In this document: piece after piece, positions 37,157-47,227 of the stretch
Numbering within the stretch: the first letter of the stretch is position 1
Layout of the letters: every line of letters starts with the position of its first letter
Source of the DNA: Sphingomonas lutea
GTDB taxonomy: Bacteria; Pseudomonadota; Alphaproteobacteria; Sphingomonadales; Sphingomonadaceae
NCBI RefSeq assembly: GCF_014396785.1
Contig: NZ_CP060718.1
Coordinates: 1-64,000 of the forward strand
DNA length: 64,000 nucleotides
Direction: 5' to 3'
The notes under the pieces: model-generated
Databases searched by the model: none
The model's input: only the letters and a program-made list of their open reading frames with translations
What the model was told of the DNA's origin: nothing
Made by a program: the position numbers and the translations under genes

Positions 37157-38503
37157 TCAGGCGGCGCGACGGATGACGCGTTCGGCCAGGGGCTCGTCGT
37201 TGAGGACGGCGACCAGCTGGTGCTGCCCATCGGCACTTCGGCGCGTAACAACCACCGCAAATTCGGCCTCGACGGGCACATCGGCCAGCGCGATGGCCGG
37301 TGCCCGGCGCAGCTTGGCGCGGGCCGCGTCTCCGCGATCGTCCGGGCGCGGTCCCGGTCGGCGCGCAGCGCGCTCCGCGGCAACCAGCGCCTTGAGGCCG
37401 CCGGCCTGGCCTTCGATGAAATCGCGGAATTTCCCGGCTTCGACCTGCTGCCGGTGGGCATGGGAAAGCGCAGCCGCAAACTCCGTCAGCCGCGCCTTGT
37501 CGTAATCGACGCCGAAAACCAACTTCACGACCGGCGTCATCGGCGCCCGCGCCTGCGCCTTCACCCCAGAATCGTCGAGGATTTCGGCGTAGCCTTCAGG
37601 GTCGTCCGTCGCGGCCAAGGAGAAATCGTAGGCCAAAGCCAGCGCAGCGTAGAGTGCGCCGCGGGTGCGCCCCTCACCCAGCTTGACCGCCTCGGCCCCT
37701 TCGCGCGCCGCCCATAAGCGGTCTGCCAGACCGGCGTCGGCGTCGAGAGCAGGAACTGCCAGGCCATCGTCGTCGCTGTCGTCATGCAGCGGGCCGTCTT
37801 CCCAAGAGAAATGGGGAACTGGCTGGACATGCTCGTCCGCGGATTCGGAAACAGCCGGGACGTCAGCTGGCGGAGCCTCATCGTCGCCTCCCAGCAACAG
37901 CTCGGGAAACGCGTCCGGAACGTCGGCGGCGGAGGCCAGGTCCAGCATCGGCACCATCGGAACGAAGGCCGTATCGGGGGTAGCGTCCACGGCCTTCCAG
38001 TTGATGACGCCGTAGATGAAATCGATCGTCTCGCCGTCCGACGAGAAGGGCATGAGGATGCCGCGATAGCAGATATTCTCTTCGCGCTGGTTCACATATT
38101 CGGCTTCGAAGCCGATCGGCGCGCGGTTGGCGATGATCTGCAGATAATGGTCCGTCAGCCGCGACAGCAGCGACCGGCTCGGCACCTCCGAAGTCGTTCG
38201 TGCGTCGTCGGCCAGCCCGCATTCCTCGCGGATGGCGCCCCCAATGTAGGGCATCGCCGGGCTATCGCGGCCGCAGGTAAAATCGAGCAATACGCTGTGC
38301 GCCGAAAAATCCTCGAGATTGCCGGGTTCGAGATCCTCGATCGACGGGAAGTCGCGACCGTCGAGCAGCGACACCCAGTAATTATAGGCACGCACATGCA
38401 TGCGCCGCTCGTCCGTACCGATCGCCGCAGCGACGGCGGCCGCAGATGCATCGGCGGCCACCGAAGGCTCGAAGTCACTTGGATACCCGCGGAACCCGTC
38501 CAT
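37157..38503 (-). CDS. PAS-domain protein (PAS_5 type)
   Basis: A 448-aa cytoplasmic protein. Residues about 35-165 match the alphaproteobacterial PAS_5 fold (YNYWVSLLDGRDFPSIEDLE, YIGGAIREECGL, IGFEAEYVNQREENICYRGI, LMPFSSDGETIDFIYGVINW). The remainder is acidic then helical (ARAPMTPVVKLVFGVDYDKA) with no output domain I recognise. It may sense a ligand or act as an adaptor. Upstream of NAD-GDH on the same strand, 84 bases apart. Confidence 0.8.
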   Translation of the reverse strand: MDGFRGYPSDFEPSVAADASAAAVAAAIGTDERRMHVRAYNYWVSLLDGRDFPSIEDLEPGNLEDFSAHSVLLDFTCGRDSPAMPYIGGAIREECGLADDARTTSEVPSRSLLSRLTDHYLQIIANRAPIGFEAEYVNQREENICYRGILMPFSSDGETIDFIYGVINWKAVDATPDTAFVPMVPMLDLASAADVPDAFPELLLGGDDEAPPADVPAVSESADEHVQPVPHFSWEDGPLHDDSDDDGLAVPALDADAGLADRLWAAREGAEAVKLGEGRTRGALYAALALAYDFSLAATDDPEGYAEILDDSGVKAQARAPMTPVVKLVFGVDYDKARLTEFAAALSHAHRQQVEAGKFRDFIEGQAGGLKALVAAERAARRPGPRPDDRGDAARAKLRRAPAIALADVPVEAEFAVVVTRRSADGQHQLVAVLNDEPLAERVIRRAA

Positions 38504-38645: not shown

Positions 38646-38721
38646 GCCGCTTTAGCTCAGCTGGTAGAGCACATCATTCGTAATGATGGGGTCAGGTGTT
38701 CGAGTCACCTAAGCGGCACCA
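38646..38721 (+). tRNA. tRNA-Thr (anticodon CGU)
   Basis: A 76-nt cloverleaf with encoded CCA. The acceptor arms GCCGCTT and AAGCGGC pair perfectly. The anticodon stem CATCA/TGATG encloses loop TTCGTAA (anticodon CGT at DNA level), and a T-loop TTCGAGT is present. It is followed by the 440-base gap and the subtilase cassette. Confidence 0.95.
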
Positions 38722-39161
38722 CCCTAAAATCGATGAGCGGCCGTGCAGGCGATCGTCTCTTTTGCGTAGCCCGCCCGTGATCTGATCCTACATTTGTGAA
38801 CCGGCCAGTAAACGACAAGCACTCGATCTGAGTCGCGCGTCTGCCTGACTATAACGCCTTGAGAGAATGCGTTTCTTCGGGCGTTGCTAATTTATGTTAT
38901 TTAGCCGATATTGTGACATCAGCTTGCCGACTGACTGATTGTGCAACTCGCGGCCCATTGGGCGGTGGGTTACCCGTTGTTGTGGAGACCGCGCATGGTC
39001 ACGGAACCTGAATTTTCCTCGAGCGCCCACGCCAGGATTCTGCTGCCCTTTCGATCCTGACGCTCGCGCAAGCGGGCAGATCAGAGCCAGCGCGACAGCG
39101 CCGCCGATCCTCGGGGCACCTTCCCGATAGGTCGACCAAATTACCGCGGGGAGCGAAAACC
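38722..39161. other. 440-base gap between tRNA-Thr and the hydrolase/protease cassette
   Basis: No gene is supported. The stretch 38860-38935 is clearly AT-richer than its surroundings (TTGCTAATTTATGTTATTTA) and is the likely promoter region of the downstream four-gene unit. A weak stem (AACGCC with GGCGTT, 38852-38885) is present. I looked for a second copy of the tRNA-Thr 3' end as an attachment site and did not find a clear one within the cassette or at its far end. Confidence 0.5.
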
Positions 39162-39965
39162 ATGAATACCGCACGCAGACCGGCGCGCAAACCGGCTATC
39201 CGCCTTGTCGGAGATGATGACCGGGCCGCCACGCGCTTCAACGTCGGGGAAAGCATCGCCTTAGAGGCGAGCGGCTTGGCACCGGCCAAGGTTCATGACC
39301 TCAACATTCGGATCGATCAGAAGACCGCGCTCGATTTGCGGCTGATCTCCGACCGGGACGGAAACATTCCCGCCACCGTGATCTGGGCGCAGCTGGGCTT
39401 CGACGACCCCGCGTCGGGCGCGCGATACACTTTGGTTGAAGCTCTTGAGAGGTTTGGCGGCAGGACGATAGAAATCGTCGTCCGGCAGGAACGGCGCAAA
39501 ATCACCGCGGCGAAAGCTGTGATCGAAAAGCGCCTGACGCGGCCGCTCGTGGCCGTGGTCGACGCGGCCGGCCGCCTCCTCAATGCCGTCGACGAAGAAG
39601 GCGAAGAACCGCACCTCCTGCTGGCCGGCCTTGCATCATCCGGATCCGTGGTCGTGACGGCGGTAGCGCGCCAGCATGACTGGTACGTTGGTGCGCGCCT
39701 GGAAGAGGCATTGACGAGAACGGGTGATCCCGCGCGGATGGAGGTCGAGATCAGGGAAGGTGACGCCCGGGTCACGAGGTTCCCGCTGGCCCGCGATCTT
39801 CCGCCGGGCGCATACGACCTGATCGTGCGTCCGATCCGCTACGGCTACGAACATCACCTCGCCCCGCTCGTCACTCGACATGACATCATCGGAAGCAGGC
39901 GCATCACCGGCTTGGTGGTCCGCGAGGATTTCTGGCGCGCAAAGCCCGTCCTGGGGGCTGCGTGA
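39162..39965 (+). CDS. Hypothetical beta-domain protein, first gene of the subtilase cassette
   Basis: A 267-aa soluble protein (MNTARRPARKPAIRLVGDDD) with no signal peptide. An N-terminal Ig-like segment (FNVGESIALEASGLAPAKVH, RLISDRDGNIPATVIW) and a C-terminal segment PPGAYDLIVRPIRYG followed by DIIGSRRITGLVVREDF are visible. The latter closely parallels PGEYDIVADFGNN and DIIDGYFIAGFRVVEDP in the next gene, so the two share a homologous beta domain. It overlaps that gene as GTGA. No known function. Confidence 0.78.
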   Translation: MNTARRPARKPAIRLVGDDDRAATRFNVGESIALEASGLAPAKVHDLNIRIDQKTALDLRLISDRDGNIPATVIWAQLGFDDPASGARYTLVEALERFGGRTIEIVVRQERRKITAAKAVIEKRLTRPLVAVVDAAGRLLNAVDEEGEEPHLLLAGLASSGSVVVTAVARQHDWYVGARLEEALTRTGDPARMEVEIREGDARVTRFPLARDLPPGAYDLIVRPIRYGYEHHLAPLVTRHDIIGSRRITGLVVREDFWRAKPVLGAA

Positions 39966-41923
39966 ACAAAATTCCGATCAGCGGGCGAACGGTTTCCGGC
40001 GCTCCCTATTTTCGCTTCACCGACACGTTTGAAGTCGGTGCCGATGTGTGGGGTGCGCTAGATCCAGGCATCGTCGATCCCGGCAATGTCAGCAAAATGT
40101 GCGCGCTCTACGTCATTCCGAGCAAGTCGGATGTGCAATGGAATGCGGACAATTCCCTGGCTCACCTGGCGATCCTTGGCGGGAATGCCGCGGTGCCGAA
40201 GATCAAGGTTCAAGCGGGCTGCATCAATGCCAACAAGGTGTTGTTGTGGCCCGGTGCAAGCCAACCCGGAGAGTATGACATCGTCGCCGACTTCGGAAAT
40301 AATACACCGGACGCTGCAAGCTTCGTCAGCGACGCGCAATACAACACGCCGCTCGATATCATCGATGGCTACTTCATCGCCGGCTTCCGGGTTGTCGAGG
40401 ACCCGGGCACCCTCGGCGATTGGGCGCAGGTCGGTCAGTGGTTCTACAACGAGACGACCCAAGGGATCGCGACAGTCGTCGACGAAGCGGGCTCGTACAG
40501 CACACCGGGTGGCTTCGCGAGCGTCAACGTTTCCGTCCCGCGCAAAGCGAACGTCTTCTTTCCCGCTGATGCGCCAGGCGTCACAAGCCCTGCGCAGATC
40601 AGCGGCGTGTCCGCAAACTATCCCTTGATCGTCGTGATTCACGGCAACGGGCACAACTACACCAGCTACGATTTTCTACTGCAGCATCTCGCCCGCAACG
40701 GGTTCATTGCCGCGAGCATCCATATCAATTCGGGCATGTCCGGGCTCGGGCGCGCCAACATGCTGTTCGAGCATCTCGGGATACTCAAGCCGGCATTTGG
40801 GTCGAAGCTTCAGAACAACATCGGATTGCTGGGGCACAGCCGCGGCGGCGAAGCGGTGATCAAGGCGGCACGCCTCAACCAGCAGCAAGGGCTAGGTCAT
40901 GGCCTCAACGCCCTGATGGCGCTCGCTCCCACCGACCAGTACGGACACGAGACGCTCGTCGCGCCGTGGGCCACGCCGCATTTCGTTCTTTACGGATCGA
41001 GAGACGGAGACATCAAAGGCGACATCTACACACCCGGCTACACAACGGCGCAAACCGGCTTCGCCCTCTACGACCGGAGCGCCGACGCATCCAAGCAAAT
41101 GCTGTTCGTGCACCGGGCAAGCCACAACGGTTTCATCAACTATAACGAGGATTTCAGCGGTGAAGCGTCGACCTGCATAAGCGTGGCCGACCAGCAAAAG
41201 GTGATGCTGGCATATACGAACGCCTTCTTCCGCAAGGAGCTTAGCGCCGACCCAAGATGGGAGGGCATGTTCAGCGGGGATTGGGTACCGCCGTCCGTGA
41301 GCGTCAATGGAACGCTGGTGCAGACTCAATTCCGCCGTGCCGCGGCGAGCGTCATCGACGATTTCCAGGCCAATGCAACTTGGACAACGAGTTCCAGTGG
41401 CGGAGCGGTGACCTCGACCGGTCTCCCGGTCACGCCGGCCGAAGGGAAGCTTAGGGATCATCCTGCAGCCAGTGGAATCGATCCCCTTTCGCCGCATGAC
41501 AGCAGCGGCATGCGGATCCGATGGGACAATATCGGCGACAGGATCGACTGGGCCATCCCCGCCGGGCAGGGGAACGTATCGGCAGCTGACGTTCTGAGCA
41601 TCCGCCTTGGTCAAGTGGCCGGAAGTGCGATCAATCCGGCGAACGCCGCGCAGAACCTGAGGATCGCCCTCAGGGATGGAGCAGGTAACGAACGCGCGGT
41701 GCGGGTTGGCGCTTTCAGCACACTGCCGTATCCGGATGTCCGGCCGGTTTCGACGCGCACCAAGTCCGCGCTCCTGACGGTACGCATCCCGTTAAGTGCG
41801 TGGACCATCGTCTGCGCCGGTCAACCGAAAGTCGACCTTACCAATGTGGTGTCGGTCAGCCTTGTTCTGTCCGAGACTCCGGCAGGTGAAGTCTGCGTCG
41901 ATGAAATCGAATTCTCAGCTTGA
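39962..41923 (+). CDS. Large alpha/beta hydrolase with flanking beta domains
   Basis: A 653-aa protein, GTG 39962. Residues about 1-200 form a beta domain shared with the preceding gene. Residues about 210-430 are an alpha/beta hydrolase: oxyanion strand LIVVIHGNGHNYTSYDFLLQ, nucleophile elbow GHSRGG with S293, a probable acid in YGSRDGDIKGD, and H388 in RASHNGF. The arrangement resembles chlorophyllase/PAF-acetylhydrolase/cutinase-like esterases. Residues about 450-653 look like a carbohydrate-binding-type beta sandwich (RRAAASVIDDFQANATWTTS, IEFSA end). No signal peptide, so cytoplasmic or non-classically exported. Substrate unknown. Confidence 0.8.
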   Translation: MNKIPISGRTVSGAPYFRFTDTFEVGADVWGALDPGIVDPGNVSKMCALYVIPSKSDVQWNADNSLAHLAILGGNAAVPKIKVQAGCINANKVLLWPGASQPGEYDIVADFGNNTPDAASFVSDAQYNTPLDIIDGYFIAGFRVVEDPGTLGDWAQVGQWFYNETTQGIATVVDEAGSYSTPGGFASVNVSVPRKANVFFPADAPGVTSPAQISGVSANYPLIVVIHGNGHNYTSYDFLLQHLARNGFIAASIHINSGMSGLGRANMLFEHLGILKPAFGSKLQNNIGLLGHSRGGEAVIKAARLNQQQGLGHGLNALMALAPTDQYGHETLVAPWATPHFVLYGSRDGDIKGDIYTPGYTTAQTGFALYDRSADASKQMLFVHRASHNGFINYNEDFSGEASTCISVADQQKVMLAYTNAFFRKELSADPRWEGMFSGDWVPPSVSVNGTLVQTQFRRAAASVIDDFQANATWTTSSSGGAVTSTGLPVTPAEGKLRDHPAASGIDPLSPHDSSGMRIRWDNIGDRIDWAIPAGQGNVSAADVLSIRLGQVAGSAINPANAAQNLRIALRDGAGNERAVRVGAFSTLPYPDVRPVSTRTKSALLTVRIPLSAWTIVCAGQPKVDLTNVVSVSLVLSETPAGEVCVDEIEFSA

Positions 41924-42384
41924 AGGACATCAGGATGTTTTCCATTTCCCAGATGCTTTCTGTCCGCGAGCAGACCAAGCTCAGCACCCGGACCTTTGAA
42001 ACCCTGCTCGACCTCAACGATCGGCCGCACCTGCTGCTCGCGATTGAGATCCGGGGCGCTATCTTCCCGCACATGAACGCAGAACCGTTCGTGCAGATTG
42101 TCGACGAACGCCGGCGCGGAGCCAGAAGCTGGATCGCGGACGTTGCCGACGATGGGTCCGCGATCACCGGCTATTTCCCGCTGGACGCAGACCTTTCCGG
42201 GTCGATCGTGGAATTTGGATACGGCTCGAGCGCATTCGGACGCATCGCGAACTATCGAGCCTCTGGTGAAAAGCTGGACCGCGACAGGCTTTCTGCAAGG
42301 ACGGTGGTCGTCACCATCGAGCTCATTCGCAAGATCAGCAAGCTGAAGTCGGACGAGGATCCGTTGGCAGTCCTGACGGAATAG
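41920..42384 (+). CDS. Hypothetical protein between hydrolase and subtilase
   Basis: A 154-aa protein. TTG 41920 overlaps the hydrolase stop as TTGA; ATG 41935 (MFSISQMLSVREQTKLSTRT) is the alternative. Mostly predicted strands (HLLLAIEIRGAIFPHMN, FVQIVDERRRGARSWIADVA) with an acidic middle and a basic C-terminal helix (ELIRKISKLKSDED). No motif recognised. Its position suggests a dedicated partner of the flanking enzymes. Confidence 0.75.
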   Translation: MKDIRMFSISQMLSVREQTKLSTRTFETLLDLNDRPHLLLAIEIRGAIFPHMNAEPFVQIVDERRRGARSWIADVADDGSAITGYFPLDADLSGSIVEFGYGSSAFGRIANYRASGEKLDRDRLSARTVVVTIELIRKISKLKSDEDPLAVLTE

Positions 42385-42426
42385 AGAGAGCGCCTGACAA
42401 CCCTTTAAGCCGAAGGAGCCGGAGAC

Positions 42427-45400
42427 ATGGCAACGCAAGACAAGATGCTATCGGCGCGGCTTGTTGTCGACGTCGTCGATGTCAACGGTGAGCCCCTCAA
42501 GGCTGCGAAAGTGGAATTCAGAGGCGACAATAGCAAAGGTGCGGCCGCACGATTTGCACGGGAAGGCCACAGTTACGTCGCAGAAATCCGCACTCCGCTT
42601 CGCGGAGAGGTCCGCGTCACAAGCGAGGGTTACGAAGAGCAGGCTCGTGACGTCGGCCTCACGAGCGGTGAGAACCGGGAGCTGTTCGTGTTGGGCCCGC
42701 GCGGCTCCAGATATTATTTCCGTGAGAAAGTGCGGATGCCGGTGGAGGCGCCGAGAAACCTTTTCGCGCTTACCTTGTCCCAGCGTGCGCGGCGCGACGC
42801 GTCCAAGGTCAATGAGTTGCTGCGATCCCTGAAGATAAAGCCGCAGCGCGCTTCAGAGTTAGCCGAACGCTCCGGGACGTTCCTGTTCGAAGTGCCCGTG
42901 ACCAACGCACGAGCGATGTTGGCCCGCCTATCCGAGCATCCCGCCATTGAGCATGTGGGCGCGGTCGTATCCCTGCGCGAGGGGGGCAACTTCTCGCACC
43001 TCACGCAGGATGTGATCGTCCGCTTCAACGGTCCCCGTCTACGGGACGTGCAACGGATAGCGGAAAGCCTCGGTTTCAGCGTCACGCGCGAAATCGTCTA
43101 CGCGCCGCATAGCTATGTTCTGCGCTGGCAAAAGCCGGCAACGCTCGAGATTCTGGATGCCATCGAGCGTTTGGCGAAGCGGCCTGACGTCGAGTGGGCC
43201 GAGCCGAGCCTGGTCGTCACTCCCGAACTTGACGCGATAACGCCCACCGATTTTCTGTGGGCGGGCCTGTGGGATCGCCAGCTGATCGGACTTCCCGATG
43301 CGTGGCAGAATCTTCAGGATGCGGGCCTCGAGCCTTTTGGAGACCCGAACATACTGCTTGCGGTCTGGGACAGCGGAACGCAGACGGCGGCCGGAATCCC
43401 GACCAACGCCGACTTCACCGGTAATTTGAGCAACGGTCAGCCCAAGGTGCTCGCCGCGTTCGACTTCATCAACATGGTGGCTAATAATGACAGTCCGTGG
43501 AGCGATCACGGCTCGGGCGTCGCTGGCGTGTCGGCGGCGATGGCGAATAATCCGTCGCCGGTCGCCGGCCAGACGTACGGCCTGGTCGGCAGCGCCCCAA
43601 ACGTGCAAGTCATGCTGTGCGCGGGCACGGCTTCGACCGATCTGTATGTCGCCGATCAGTATATCTGGATGGCGGGATTCGATCCTCAGAGCCCGGTCGC
43701 CGGCTTTCCGGCGACGCCGCCGCTTCGCGGCGCGGATGTGATCACCTGCAGCCTGACGCCCGGCGCGGGAGCAGCCCTGTCAGGAATCGCGAGGGCCGCG
43801 CTCGACTTCGTCACCACCTTCGGCCGCGGCGGCAAGGGAACGATGTGCTTCTTCTCGACGGGGAATGCCAACCAAAACAACGTCATTGCGCGCCCTTACG
43901 GCGCGTATGAAAAATGCTTCGGCATTGCTGCCATCTCCTACGCAAACGACGGCGTCACCGAGGTCCGTGCCCCCTATTCTGGATGGGGACAGATTGCCTT
44001 CTGTTCGCCGTCGCAGGACCAATCCCCCACGGTCCACAATCCTCCGACCGGCTTCATGCCTTGGGCCGCCAGCCATGCCGGCCTGGGCAATCTCATCAGC
44101 TTTCCGCAAGCTTCGACCACGATTTCTTCCGCAAGCGTCGCAGGCGCAAATACCCTGACATTCGTGACCATTGTGGGTTTCGCGGTGAATGACGTGATCC
44201 ACGTGGGACCGATCGGTGCCCTTGGCAGTGAGCCGGCGAGAATCACTGCGGTCGATGGCGCGACGAATCAGGTCACGCTCGCCAGCGCGCTCCTGAACGC
44301 GCACGCGGCTGGAGACTTGATTCAGACCGGCCCGGCCAATCACAAGAATAACTTCGGCGGCACGTCGTCCGCGACACCCTTGTGCGCCGGCGTTGCCGCC
44401 CTTGTCCTCTCCGCCAACCCCGACCTGACCTATATCGAAGCGCGGCAGGTGATGCGCGACACGGCAATCAAGCTCGACCTCGCCAATACGGATCCGACCG
44501 GCCAATGGCTCGACGCCAGCGGGAACCCGTCCGTGACGTCCGGCCAGCCCGCGGTTCGAAGCCAATGGTACGGCTATGGACGGGTCGATGCGGAGGCGGC
44601 GGTCCAGGCGGCGATCGATTATGGGATGACCCGCGATCTCGTCATTCGCGACAATCTTTCCGACGTCGGAATCGTTGCGACCAGCGGCGCATTCTGGAAC
44701 AGTCCCGATATCTGGTGCAGAACAACTGCGCCGGCGATGGACCCGGGCGCATTACCCGCCAGCTATGGCGCGGCGGGGCCGCACCAAACTCCGGTCCGAG
44801 GCCAGCCGAACTGGATCTATGCCCGAGTCCACAACAATGGCACGACGGCGTCGCTCGATGCATGGGTGCGGTTGTCGATCACGCATTTTCCCGGCCTGGA
44901 ATTCACCTATCCGGAATCCTTTCAGCCGACCAACGGACCCGGGGATCCGCTACCTGTACCCGTGACCCCGGGAACCTATTTCATCGGAGAGGCAAAGGTT
45001 GCCGGCGTCCCCCCGGGCGGGGAGCAAGTGGTGGTGATCGAATGGCCGGCCGCCCTCATTCCGCCATCGACGGTCGCGTCCGGCACCGTAACTTGGCACC
45101 CCTGCCTGTTGGCGGAGATTGCGCCGCACGACGGCCCGGCGGCGACCGGCAACCATGTCTGGGACGACAATAATCTTGCGCAGAAGAACATTACCATCGT
45201 CGGCCCGGATTCCGCTTCAGACTTTGAGATGGCGGTCATCGTCGGAAACGAGGCCAATCGCGCAGACTTGCTCTATGTGGACATCTTCCGCGGCAAGCTA
45301 CCGCCTTCGGTCGAGCTGTATGTCGATCTGATGGACCCCAGACTGTTTCGTCAGCTGCGGAGTATCCATGCGCCGCACGACCGGCCCGAGCCCCAGGTGG

Positions 45401-45711
45401 AGGATGGCGACGTAATGGTCAGGCCGTCGCTTCGGCCATCCCGTCTGCTTGAGCGCGCAGGCTGGCGGATCGGCCGGAAGAACGGCCGCAATGTCCTGCT
45501 GTTGTTGCCGAGGCCCCAGGTCCGCATCCCAATCTATGCGGGGGCCGGCCGCCTTGTCCCCATCATTGTCGGCGCAAGCGGAGGTGGGCGGTCTCCGACA
45601 GGGAGATACGAGATCGTCATCATGCAACGGCAGCCGAACGGCGAAGTCAGCGGCTCGGCTTCGATCTTGGTCGACGGGCGGCAATTAAGGACGAAAAAGC
45701 GCAAGGGCTAA
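42427..45711 (+). CDS. S8 family (subtilase) serine peptidase, 1094 aa
   Basis: A multidomain subtilase starting MATQDKMLSARLVVDVVDVN after GGAGCCGGAG. Residues about 8-100 look like a carboxypeptidase-regulatory Ig-like domain, about 105-290 are a prodomain-like region, and the catalytic triad is D315 (AVWDSGTQ), H361 (SDHGSGVAG) and S647 (GGTSSATP). A beta-rich insertion at about 563-635 lies between the H and S segments. Residues about 720-970 look like a beta sandwich, and the end (RAGWRIGRKNGRNVLLLLPR) is basic. No signal peptide, unusual for a subtilase. Last gene of the four-gene cassette. Confidence 0.88.
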   Translation: MATQDKMLSARLVVDVVDVNGEPLKAAKVEFRGDNSKGAAARFAREGHSYVAEIRTPLRGEVRVTSEGYEEQARDVGLTSGENRELFVLGPRGSRYYFREKVRMPVEAPRNLFALTLSQRARRDASKVNELLRSLKIKPQRASELAERSGTFLFEVPVTNARAMLARLSEHPAIEHVGAVVSLREGGNFSHLTQDVIVRFNGPRLRDVQRIAESLGFSVTREIVYAPHSYVLRWQKPATLEILDAIERLAKRPDVEWAEPSLVVTPELDAITPTDFLWAGLWDRQLIGLPDAWQNLQDAGLEPFGDPNILLAVWDSGTQTAAGIPTNADFTGNLSNGQPKVLAAFDFINMVANNDSPWSDHGSGVAGVSAAMANNPSPVAGQTYGLVGSAPNVQVMLCAGTASTDLYVADQYIWMAGFDPQSPVAGFPATPPLRGADVITCSLTPGAGAALSGIARAALDFVTTFGRGGKGTMCFFSTGNANQNNVIARPYGAYEKCFGIAAISYANDGVTEVRAPYSGWGQIAFCSPSQDQSPTVHNPPTGFMPWAASHAGLGNLISFPQASTTISSASVAGANTLTFVTIVGFAVNDVIHVGPIGALGSEPARITAVDGATNQVTLASALLNAHAAGDLIQTGPANHKNNFGGTSSATPLCAGVAALVLSANPDLTYIEARQVMRDTAIKLDLANTDPTGQWLDASGNPSVTSGQPAVRSQWYGYGRVDAEAAVQAAIDYGMTRDLVIRDNLSDVGIVATSGAFWNSPDIWCRTTAPAMDPGALPASYGAAGPHQTPVRGQPNWIYARVHNNGTTASLDAWVRLSITHFPGLEFTYPESFQPTNGPGDPLPVPVTPGTYFIGEAKVAGVPPGGEQVVVIEWPAALIPPSTVASGTVTWHPCLLAEIAPHDGPAATGNHVWDDNNLAQKNITIVGPDSASDFEMAVIVGNEANRADLLYVDIFRGKLPPSVELYVDLMDPRLFRQLRSIHAPHDRPEPQVEDGDVMVRPSLRPSRLLERAGWRIGRKNGRNVLLLLPRPQVRIPIYAGAGRLVPIIVGASGGGRSPTGRYEIVIMQRQPNGEVSGSASILVDGRQLRTKKRKG

Positions 45712-45759
45712 ACCCGCGTCGCGAGGTGCTTAGCTACGATACCGCGGCACAATCGTGCA

Positions 45760-45793
45760 TTCCGGAGGCAAGCTCTTTAGCTAGCGTCCGGAA
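45760..45793. repeat. Short inverted repeat after the subtilase gene
   Basis: Perfect 7-bp arms TTCCGGA (45760-45766) and TCCGGAA (45787-45793) around a 20-base loop containing AAGCTCTTTAGCT. It lies in the 137-base gap between the cassette and the next gene. No T-run follows, so it may be an operator or weak terminator rather than a standard one. Confidence 0.4.
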
Positions 45794-45848
45794 GGTGAGT
45801 CGACGCACGTCTTGAATGCACCCCCGTACCTTCTCGGGAGACCGGCCA

Positions 45849-46304
45849 ATGAACGACCTGCAAGCCATCGGCGCCGTCATCGATGAGATGTACGCGATGA
45901 TCTCGGGCCCGGCCGGCCCGCGCGACTGGTCGCGGCAGGCCAACAGCTTTCTGCCAGATGCGCATCAGGTGCGCACCTGGGTCGACGACGACGGCCGTCC
46001 GCAGCGCAAGGTGATGAGCCTTGACGAATATGCGGCGAACACGTCGCCCTTTTTCGAAAGCCAGCCCTTCTACGAAGTCGAGACCGCGCGCCGCATCGAC
46101 CTATTCGGCAACATGGCCCACGTGTGGAGCAACTACGAAGCCCGCACCTCGCCCGACGATGCCGATGTCGAGCGGCGCGGGATCAATTCGATCCAGCTGT
46201 TCCGCGACCCCGAACTCGGCTGGCGGATTATCCACATGATCTGGGACAATGAGCGCAACCCCGACCTGGAATGGCCAAAGCGTCCCGGGGTAACCGTCGA
46301 CTGA
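45849..46304 (+). CDS. NTF2-like hypothetical protein
   Basis: A 151-aa protein from ATG 45849 (MNDLQAIGAVIDEMYAMISG). The order helix, curved sheet with YEVETARRIDLFGNMAHVWS and NSIQLFRDPELGWRIIHMIW matches the SnoaL/NTF2 cone fold. No catalytic residues identified. The stop overlaps the panE-like start (TGATG), so the two are co-transcribed. Confidence 0.82.
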   Translation: MNDLQAIGAVIDEMYAMISGPAGPRDWSRQANSFLPDAHQVRTWVDDDGRPQRKVMSLDEYAANTSPFFESQPFYEVETARRIDLFGNMAHVWSNYEARTSPDDADVERRGINSIQLFRDPELGWRIIHMIWDNERNPDLEWPKRPGVTVD

Positions 46305-47227
46305 TGCGCATTTGTGTCGTCGGCGCGGGGGCGATTGGCGGCTGGGTCGCCGCGCGGCTCGCGCTCGCCGGCAACAAAGTAATGGCGCTGACCAGCCGCG
46401 GCCCGATCGACGGCATTTCGATCGAGCAGGCGGGCGAGGTCCAAGTCGCGACCTTCGACCGATTCGATGGGCCCGCCGATCTGCTGATCGTCGCAGTGAA
46501 AGCGACCGATCTGCCCTCCGTTGCACCAACGCTAGGCAAGCACATTTCGTCCGGAACCGTCGTGCTGCCGATGCTCAACGGCGTGCCCTGGTGGTTTGTC
46601 GATGGCGAGCCGCTGCGCGCGGTCGATCCCGATGGCGCGATCGCCCGCGCTTTTCCGGTGAACCAAGTCATGGGCTGCGTGGTCCACGCCACGTGCAGCC
46701 GGACGGCGCTGGATTGCGTGCGGGTGAACTTCGTCGACAAATTGATTATCGGCGAACGCGACGGCTCGAGCAGCGTGCGGCTCGCACGGATTGAGGGTGT
46801 GCTGGCAGACGCCGGTTTGCGCCCCGACCTGACCGGCAACGTCCGCCGCGCCATCTGGTACAAATTGTGGGGCAATGCGACGATCAACCCGCTGTCGGCA
46901 CTGGTCCGCACGACTTGCGACCGAATCCTCGCCGATCCCGAATGCCGCGCCTGGATGCTCGAGGGCATGGGCGAACTGGCAGCGGTAGGTGCTGCCATCG
47001 GCTGCCCGATCGGTGAGCGCGGCGAAGACCGCATGGCGGTCACCGCCAAGCTCGGCGCGTTCAAGACATCGATGCTGCAGGACGTCGAGGCCGGGCGGCC
47101 GATCGAGCTCGAAGCCCTGCTCGGCGCCCCGCGCGAAATCGCGCAGCGCCGCGACATCGTGACGCCTGCGCTCGACCGGCTCTACGCCGTCACGCGGCTG
47201 ATGGCGGAGAGCTCAGGCTTGACCTGA
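46304..47227 (+). CDS. panE: 2-dehydropantoate 2-reductase family protein
   Basis: A 307-aa NADP-dependent reductase. Rossmann motif VVGAGAIGGWVAARLA at the N-terminus. The middle has VLPMLNGVPWWF, and the C-terminal ApbA domain has RRAIWYKLWGNATINPLSAL, with the Lys and Asn expected at the ketopantoate site. It may act in pantothenate synthesis or on a related 2-oxo acid. It converges with fahA, their ends overlapping by 15 bases. Confidence 0.85.
   Translation: MRICVVGAGAIGGWVAARLALAGNKVMALTSRGPIDGISIEQAGEVQVATFDRFDGPADLLIVAVKATDLPSVAPTLGKHISSGTVVLPMLNGVPWWFVDGEPLRAVDPDGAIARAFPVNQVMGCVVHATCSRTALDCVRVNFVDKLIIGERDGSSSVRLARIEGVLADAGLRPDLTGNVRRAIWYKLWGNATINPLSALVRTTCDRILADPECRAWMLEGMGELAAVGAAIGCPIGERGEDRMAVTAKLGAFKTSMLQDVEAGRPIELEALLGAPREIAQRRDIVTPALDRLYAVTRLMAESSGLT

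Follow-up and report, generated by a model that had tools for sequence, protein, structure and literature searches.

The first 64,000 nucleotides of contig NZ_CP060718.1 of Sphingomonas lutea (forward strand; hereafter the window) contain, behind a tRNA-Thr gene, reading frames for a large alpha/beta hydrolase, a small immunoglobulin (Ig)-like protein and a subtilase. A preliminary description made from the sequence alone had placed open reading frames (ORFs) at 39162-39965, 39962-41923, 41920-42384 and 42427-45711, with a tRNA-Thr(cgt) at 38646-38721, 440 bases ahead of the first of them, and all of these are present. It had also read the frames as four genes chained by GTGA and TTGA overlaps, a reading that fails for the reasons given below. 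The features are the following:

38646-38721, forward strand: tRNA-Thr(cgt), the conserved left neighbour of a putatively inserted segment
39162-39965, forward strand: 5' part of the hydrolase gene (ORF1 of the preliminary description), encoding N-terminal beta domains and continuous with ORF2 in the protein P0003 and in related loci
39953-39962, forward strand: frame-change junction, with a short G-run (39953-39957) and an apparent GTGA overlap
39962-41923, forward strand: 3' part of the hydrolase gene (ORF2), encoding a beta domain, a PETase/cutinase-type alpha/beta hydrolase domain and a CBM11-like C-terminal domain
41935-42384, forward strand: ORF3, encoding the putative Ig-like partner of the hydrolase, with the ATG at 41935 likelier as start than the TTG at 41920
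42427-45711, forward strand: leaderless subtilase, with the S8 catalytic domain at residues 308-718

A protein search with ORF2 returned at least 581 relatives at E ≤1e-3, and the counts given below come from the 120 that were listed; 13 loci were taken from named genomes. The best relative, P0003, has 882 amino acids and comes from a contig of 2,416,597 bases (the genome of the window has 2,417,654), and it holds ORF1 from residue 39 to the junction and the whole of ORF2 in a single frame. According to tblastn, the two halves also share a frame in each of the 11 loci (L005-L015) that gave a match to both, and in every one of these they lie inside one open frame, directly abutting in L005-L010, L012 and L013 and with 1-15 unaligned residues between them in L011, L014 and L015. 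Because P0003 and these 11 loci carry both halves in one frame, ORF1 and ORF2 are, on this comparison, one gene that is broken in this assembly at the short G-run 39953-39957, and a four-gene operon has to be rejected since two of its four frames are one gene. Among the listed relatives, 112 of 120 have 882-1049 amino acids, longer than ORF2, and eight have fewer than 800. The search with ORF1 alone found two proteins, probably because its length limits exclude relatives of the fused length.

One listed relative, P0016 (652 amino acids, 67% identical), begins at precisely the position where the gene of the window is broken, the only such case among the 120, and a programmed frameshift at the junction was considered for this reason. 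As the junction codons differ among those related loci in which the motif could be located (nine of 12), there is no conserved slippery site; nothing points to a conserved programmed frameshift across the loci, although this genome alone may have one. The frame break is most simply explained by an error in base calling or by a recent mutation, so that either a base of the assembly is wrong or the enzyme has been lost from this strain. A chain of genes read from raw sequence can therefore be a broken gene taken for an operon.

The hydrolase and ORF3 occur together in 12 of the 13 loci. In the window, the TTG start (41920) behind the TTGA overlap of the two genes was probably miscalled, and the ATG at 41935 is favoured because AAGGA (read by eye) stands ahead of it; a start there leaves 11 bases past the hydrolase stop, and the corresponding gaps of 11 related loci measure 9-37 bases (for L015 with a start picked by eye). 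We also considered that ORF3 could have been copied from a domain of one of the two enzymes, hydrolase or subtilase, and the profile comparisons were empty. Against solved structures ORF3 gave by sequence a single match, at E 0.73, which is not meaningful, and its fold matches are generic beta-sandwiches; the Bacillus inhibitor IPI, discussed below, is not among the matches shown, which proves nothing. That each hydrolase gene is paired with one small gene downstream would also be expected if the hydrolase were delivered into other bacteria as an effector and ORF3 provided the immunity against it. The lack of a leader (by hydropathy), the patchy spread over phyla and the sheath match PF04984 (E ≤1e-3) in six of the 13 genomes, all among the 12 other than the window's and three of them above the family cut-off, would suit such a function. 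However, the window's genome has neither a PF04984 sheath nor a VipB (PF05943) match and so lacks the marks sought for contractile injection, Pfam recognises no delivery domain, and we have found no orphan ORF3 copy in the 13 genomes, so that an effector with its immunity protein is in our opinion very unlikely.

The catalytic residues of the hydrolase appear to be intact throughout the family. S293 and H388, which the preliminary description had picked out in ORF2, correspond to S522 and H617 of the intact P0003, and these two, together with D554, D577 and D579, are invariant in 20/20 aligned hydrolases (20 of the 120 listed); D577 is probably the catalytic Asp. The predicted catalytic domain has a cutinase-type alpha/beta hydrolase fold, and to this extent the polymer-degrading role that had been put forward as one option is supported by the models, which suggest a fold of the polymer-hydrolase (cutinase/PETase) type. 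All 20 aligned members match PF07224 at E ≤0.1, P0003 reaching 24.4 bits against a cut-off of 26, and six of the 20 match PF12740 at the same E value. PETase-type hydrolases have been intensively studied as secreted single-domain enzymes, and enzymes of the PETase/cutinase type are secreted with a leader. Compared with them, the hydrolase described here shows 18% identity, carries beta domains on both flanks, has a small Ig-like partner gene and is leaderless by hydropathy; moreover, the matched chains of PETase and leaf-branch compost cutinase (PF12740, PF07224) have only about 250-270 amino acids, against 882-1049 in most of the listed family.

By sequence, the best solved relative is PDB 9xg1, a protein-asparaginase by its entry name, which the hydrolase profile matches across the catalytic and C-terminal domains with E 2.1e-22, the profile positions before 607 lying outside the best matched stretch. 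P0003 alone matches it at E 4.6e-13, with the GHSRGG nucleophile motif inside the alignment. These matches would agree with a protein-deamidating enzyme that acts on side-chain amides as 9xg1 would do, working with the subtilase in protein breakdown, and so would the subtilase of the same family that adjoins the hydrolase here and in L006. However, in 11 of the 12 other hydrolase genomes the search with this subtilase gave no long match, the predicted fold of the catalytic domain is that of cutinase and PETase, and the activity of 9xg1 is taken from the entry name alone, our literature searches having found no paper on such an enzyme; deamidation is thus possible but rather unlikely. Those searches, on protein-asparaginase, DUF6603, leaderless PETase and subtilase cargo, yielded no paper of use, part of the queries being narrow and demanding several terms jointly.

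The absence of an obvious signal peptide, noticed before for the hydrolase and the subtilase, is borne out by hydropathy (best 12-residue mean within the first 45 residues), and it extends over both families rather than being a peculiarity of this genome. A mean of at least 2.0 is reached by 0/120 listed hydrolases and by 1/120 listed subtilases (P0214, where the stretch lies, by eye, in a beta-domain-like segment), and a mean of at least 1.6 by 10/120 and 5/120, respectively; on the same scale, two of the window's frames whose N-termini look exported score 2.6 and 3.0. The window's subtilase has a best mean of 1.51 and thus shows no signal peptide of the secreted S8 type. An initial Met is missing from ten listed hydrolases and six listed subtilases, whose sequences may be incomplete or begin at GTG or TTG. 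As far as hydropathy can tell, the puzzle of a large and leaderless enzyme therefore seems to apply to both families.

A leaderless enzyme could also stay in the cytoplasm and mobilise a polymer stored there, ORF3 then being a protein of the granules or a regulator, and the mean cysteine content of the listed proteins (5.8 in the hydrolases, 8.3 in the subtilases) would agree with a reducing compartment. Extracellular proteins tend to be rich in N, S, T, G, Y and W and poor in K and E, and ORF2 is of this type, with an N+S+T+G+Y+W fraction of 0.337, the highest of the window's listed frames, and a low K+E of 0.054. This composition speaks against a storage function, although the signal is weak because ORF1 is ordinary (0.206), the value of the subtilase (0.306) is equalled or exceeded by other frames, and the frame list includes spurious ones. 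As the C-terminal end of the hydrolase is CBM11-like and no polymer-synthesis gene was found in 20 scanned frames of related loci, we consider the mobilisation of a storage polymer distinctly unlikely.

The subtilase has an N-terminal stretch weakly similar to a carboxypeptidase-regulatory domain, a fervidolysin-type prodomain (according to Pfam), the S8 domain (PF00082, 70.8 bits against a cut-off of 21.8) and a further C-terminal part; a profile comparison with the hydrolase revealed no common domain. Its residues D315, H361 and S647, proposed earlier as the catalytic triad, are invariant in 21/21 aligned members (19 of 120 listed, the window's and that of L006), and so is N480, at the oxyanion place. 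It thus shares with peptidase family S8 the catalytic D, H and S, the oxyanion-place N and the prodomain, and differs from it in the added N- and C-terminal regions and in the lack of a signal-like N-terminus. A second and stronger PF00082 match (129.9 bits, in an 800-amino-acid open frame) is present in the same genome at G000:C1:175130-175942 on the reverse strand (L001). The family search gave at least 145 matches, of which 120 were listed, and the few named records place the family in Acidobacteria, Actinobacteria, Gemmatimonadetes, Bacteroidetes and Proteobacteria.

The link of the subtilase with the hydrolase is looser than that of ORF3. Besides the window, the two enzymes adjoin only in L006 (4551-9570), a Bacteroidetes metagenome-assembled genome (MAG) in which a 551-amino-acid PLD-like protein and the subtilase lie directly upstream of the hydrolase. 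When the 12 other hydrolase genomes were searched with the subtilase, 8/12 gave some match at E ≤1e-3, and the only long one was that of the L006 genome (residues 13-531 and 633-978). The remaining matches are short stretches of the S8 core, except in G427 (29% identity over residues 192-531, in a frame of 495 amino acids). A fixed four-gene module is therefore unsupported: the pair of hydrolase and ORF3 recurs in 12/13 loci and the long subtilase match in 1/12 other genomes. The 120 listed hydrolases and the 120 listed subtilases share three identical contig sizes (9698, 11602 and 13850). In a jitter test over all sizes, 0.59 coincidences were expected and three or more arose in 2% of trials; above 9 kb, a threshold picked after the sizes were seen, the figures were 0.10 and 0.02%. 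This suggests that some further contigs carry both genes, and the partnership of hydrolase and subtilase looks real but optional.

The gene structure, the pairing, the predicted folds, the conserved catalytic residues, the lack of an evident leader and the restricted occurrence are observations, and acquisition, binding, inhibition, substrate, release and the role of the subtilase are what we infer. The explanation that we favour, tentatively and at somewhat less than even confidence, is that the hydrolase and its Ig-like partner form a conserved pair with an accessory protease, the partner restraining a polymer hydrolase in the cell. The large leaderless serine hydrolase, with its PETase/cutinase-type catalytic domain between beta domains, would be made together with the Ig-like protein of the next gene, which by analogy could bind it and hold it inactive or soluble in the cell. 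Probably freed by lysis or by some export route, the hydrolase would then cleave ester or amide bonds of a polymer. The subtilase, leaderless and with its own prodomain, would be an optional addition, which may serve to mature the hydrolase, to strip off its partner or to break down protein contained in the substrate.

The analogy behind this mechanism is an intracellular hydrolase restrained by an Ig-like protein in Bacillus subtilis, whose intracellular subtilisin Isp1 has the Ig-fold inhibitor IPI, according to PMC3901451. The analogy has its limits: PMC3901451 itself questions an intracellular location of IPI; the Ig-like protein here tracks the alpha/beta hydrolase and not the subtilase; and ORF3 has no sequence link to inhibitor families, 12 ORF3 members giving no match to Pfam inhibitor families (IPI-type, BsuPI) at E ≤1. 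A bolder version, which we regard as doubtful, is an undescribed enzyme/anti-enzyme pair that crosses phyla, in which a leaderless PETase-fold hydrolase of 900-1050 amino acids would always be made with its own Ig-fold protein and stay inactive until lysis or export frees both, subtilases being occasionally recruited to switch it on. A rare family with the PETase catalytic fold, three to four times longer, leaderless and tied to an Ig-like protein, would represent a new mode of control or delivery for such enzymes and would also offer new specificities.

Other related loci show the pair in different company. In a Flavobacteriales MAG (L016, 1386-12556) the genes of a 1355-amino-acid hydrolase relative, an ORF3-like protein and a 2228-amino-acid protein with a DUF6603 match stand in this order, and the same MAG holds a second hydrolase-ORF3 pair (L009). 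In an Acidobacteria MAG (L015, 6897-9080) the pair is followed by a 120-amino-acid protein without Pfam match and a 464-amino-acid protein with a peptidase C13 match. Within the 20 frames scanned, these DUF6603 and C13 neighbours and the PLD-like protein and subtilase of L006 fit a degradative setting, without proving it; the remaining loci have ordinary, unrelated neighbours. A further copy (L013), from a MAG recorded as Methanosarcina sp., resembles the bacterial ones, and misbinning is possible.

In the window the genes probably belong to an acquired segment that lies behind the tRNA-Thr and measures about 7 kb (roughly 38722-45815). Among 298 genomes of the family the hydrolase was found only in its own; among 385 genomes of the class five more genomes had partial matches, at E values from 4.6e-4 to 3.8e-10, which fell on the hydrolase domain, and a search of 149 relatives with ORF1 gave its own genome and one marginal match of 61 residues (E 8.5e-4). 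The G+C content is 64.4% in ORF1, 60.2% in ORF2, 58.7% in ORF3 and 62.8% in the subtilase gene, and 65.2% in the window. An integrative element with a tRNA repeat was considered and rejected, as no repeat of the tRNA of 11 bases or more lies downstream of it within the window; the longest flank repeat has 10 bases (chance level not computed). In plasmid records, the hydrolase had matches in two (24% coverage) and the subtilase in 21, the coverage of the query staying below 80% in all of them and reaching 26% in the best one listed.

tRNA genes are a frequent landing place of acquired genes, and this location is what would speak for an anti-phage defence module, as had been suggested at the outset. 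However, PADLOC gave one weak match to a subtilase model (E 0.016) and no system, none of the four frames has a Pfam match to a sensor, nuclease or regulator, and the hydrolase has no relative in phage records, a pattern-based scan of viral contigs likewise confirming none, which makes a defence function extremely improbable.

The flanks of the segment are:

37157-38503: 448-amino-acid gene, flanking the tRNA-Thr
45816-46304: 162-amino-acid gene, following the subtilase and adjoined by an ApbA gene (the pair spans 45816-47227)

Labels given by eye to these two genes (PAS-like and SnoaL-like, respectively) were dropped because neither has any Pfam match. On the left, tRNA-Thr(cgt) adjoins a homologue of the 448-amino-acid gene in 19/19 relatives scanned (the loci of 29 relatives were fetched). 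On the right, a homologue of the 162-amino-acid gene adjoins ApbA in two relatives (L023 and L033); by its neighbourhood this gene is probably native, and therefore the acquired part would end ahead of 45816. In the relative G068 the ApbA gene starts about 60 bases past the tRNA-Thr, which corresponds to an empty site. The site is thus variable, the 162-amino-acid gene and ApbA being adjacent in two relatives, yet ApbA standing right behind the tRNA-Thr in G068.
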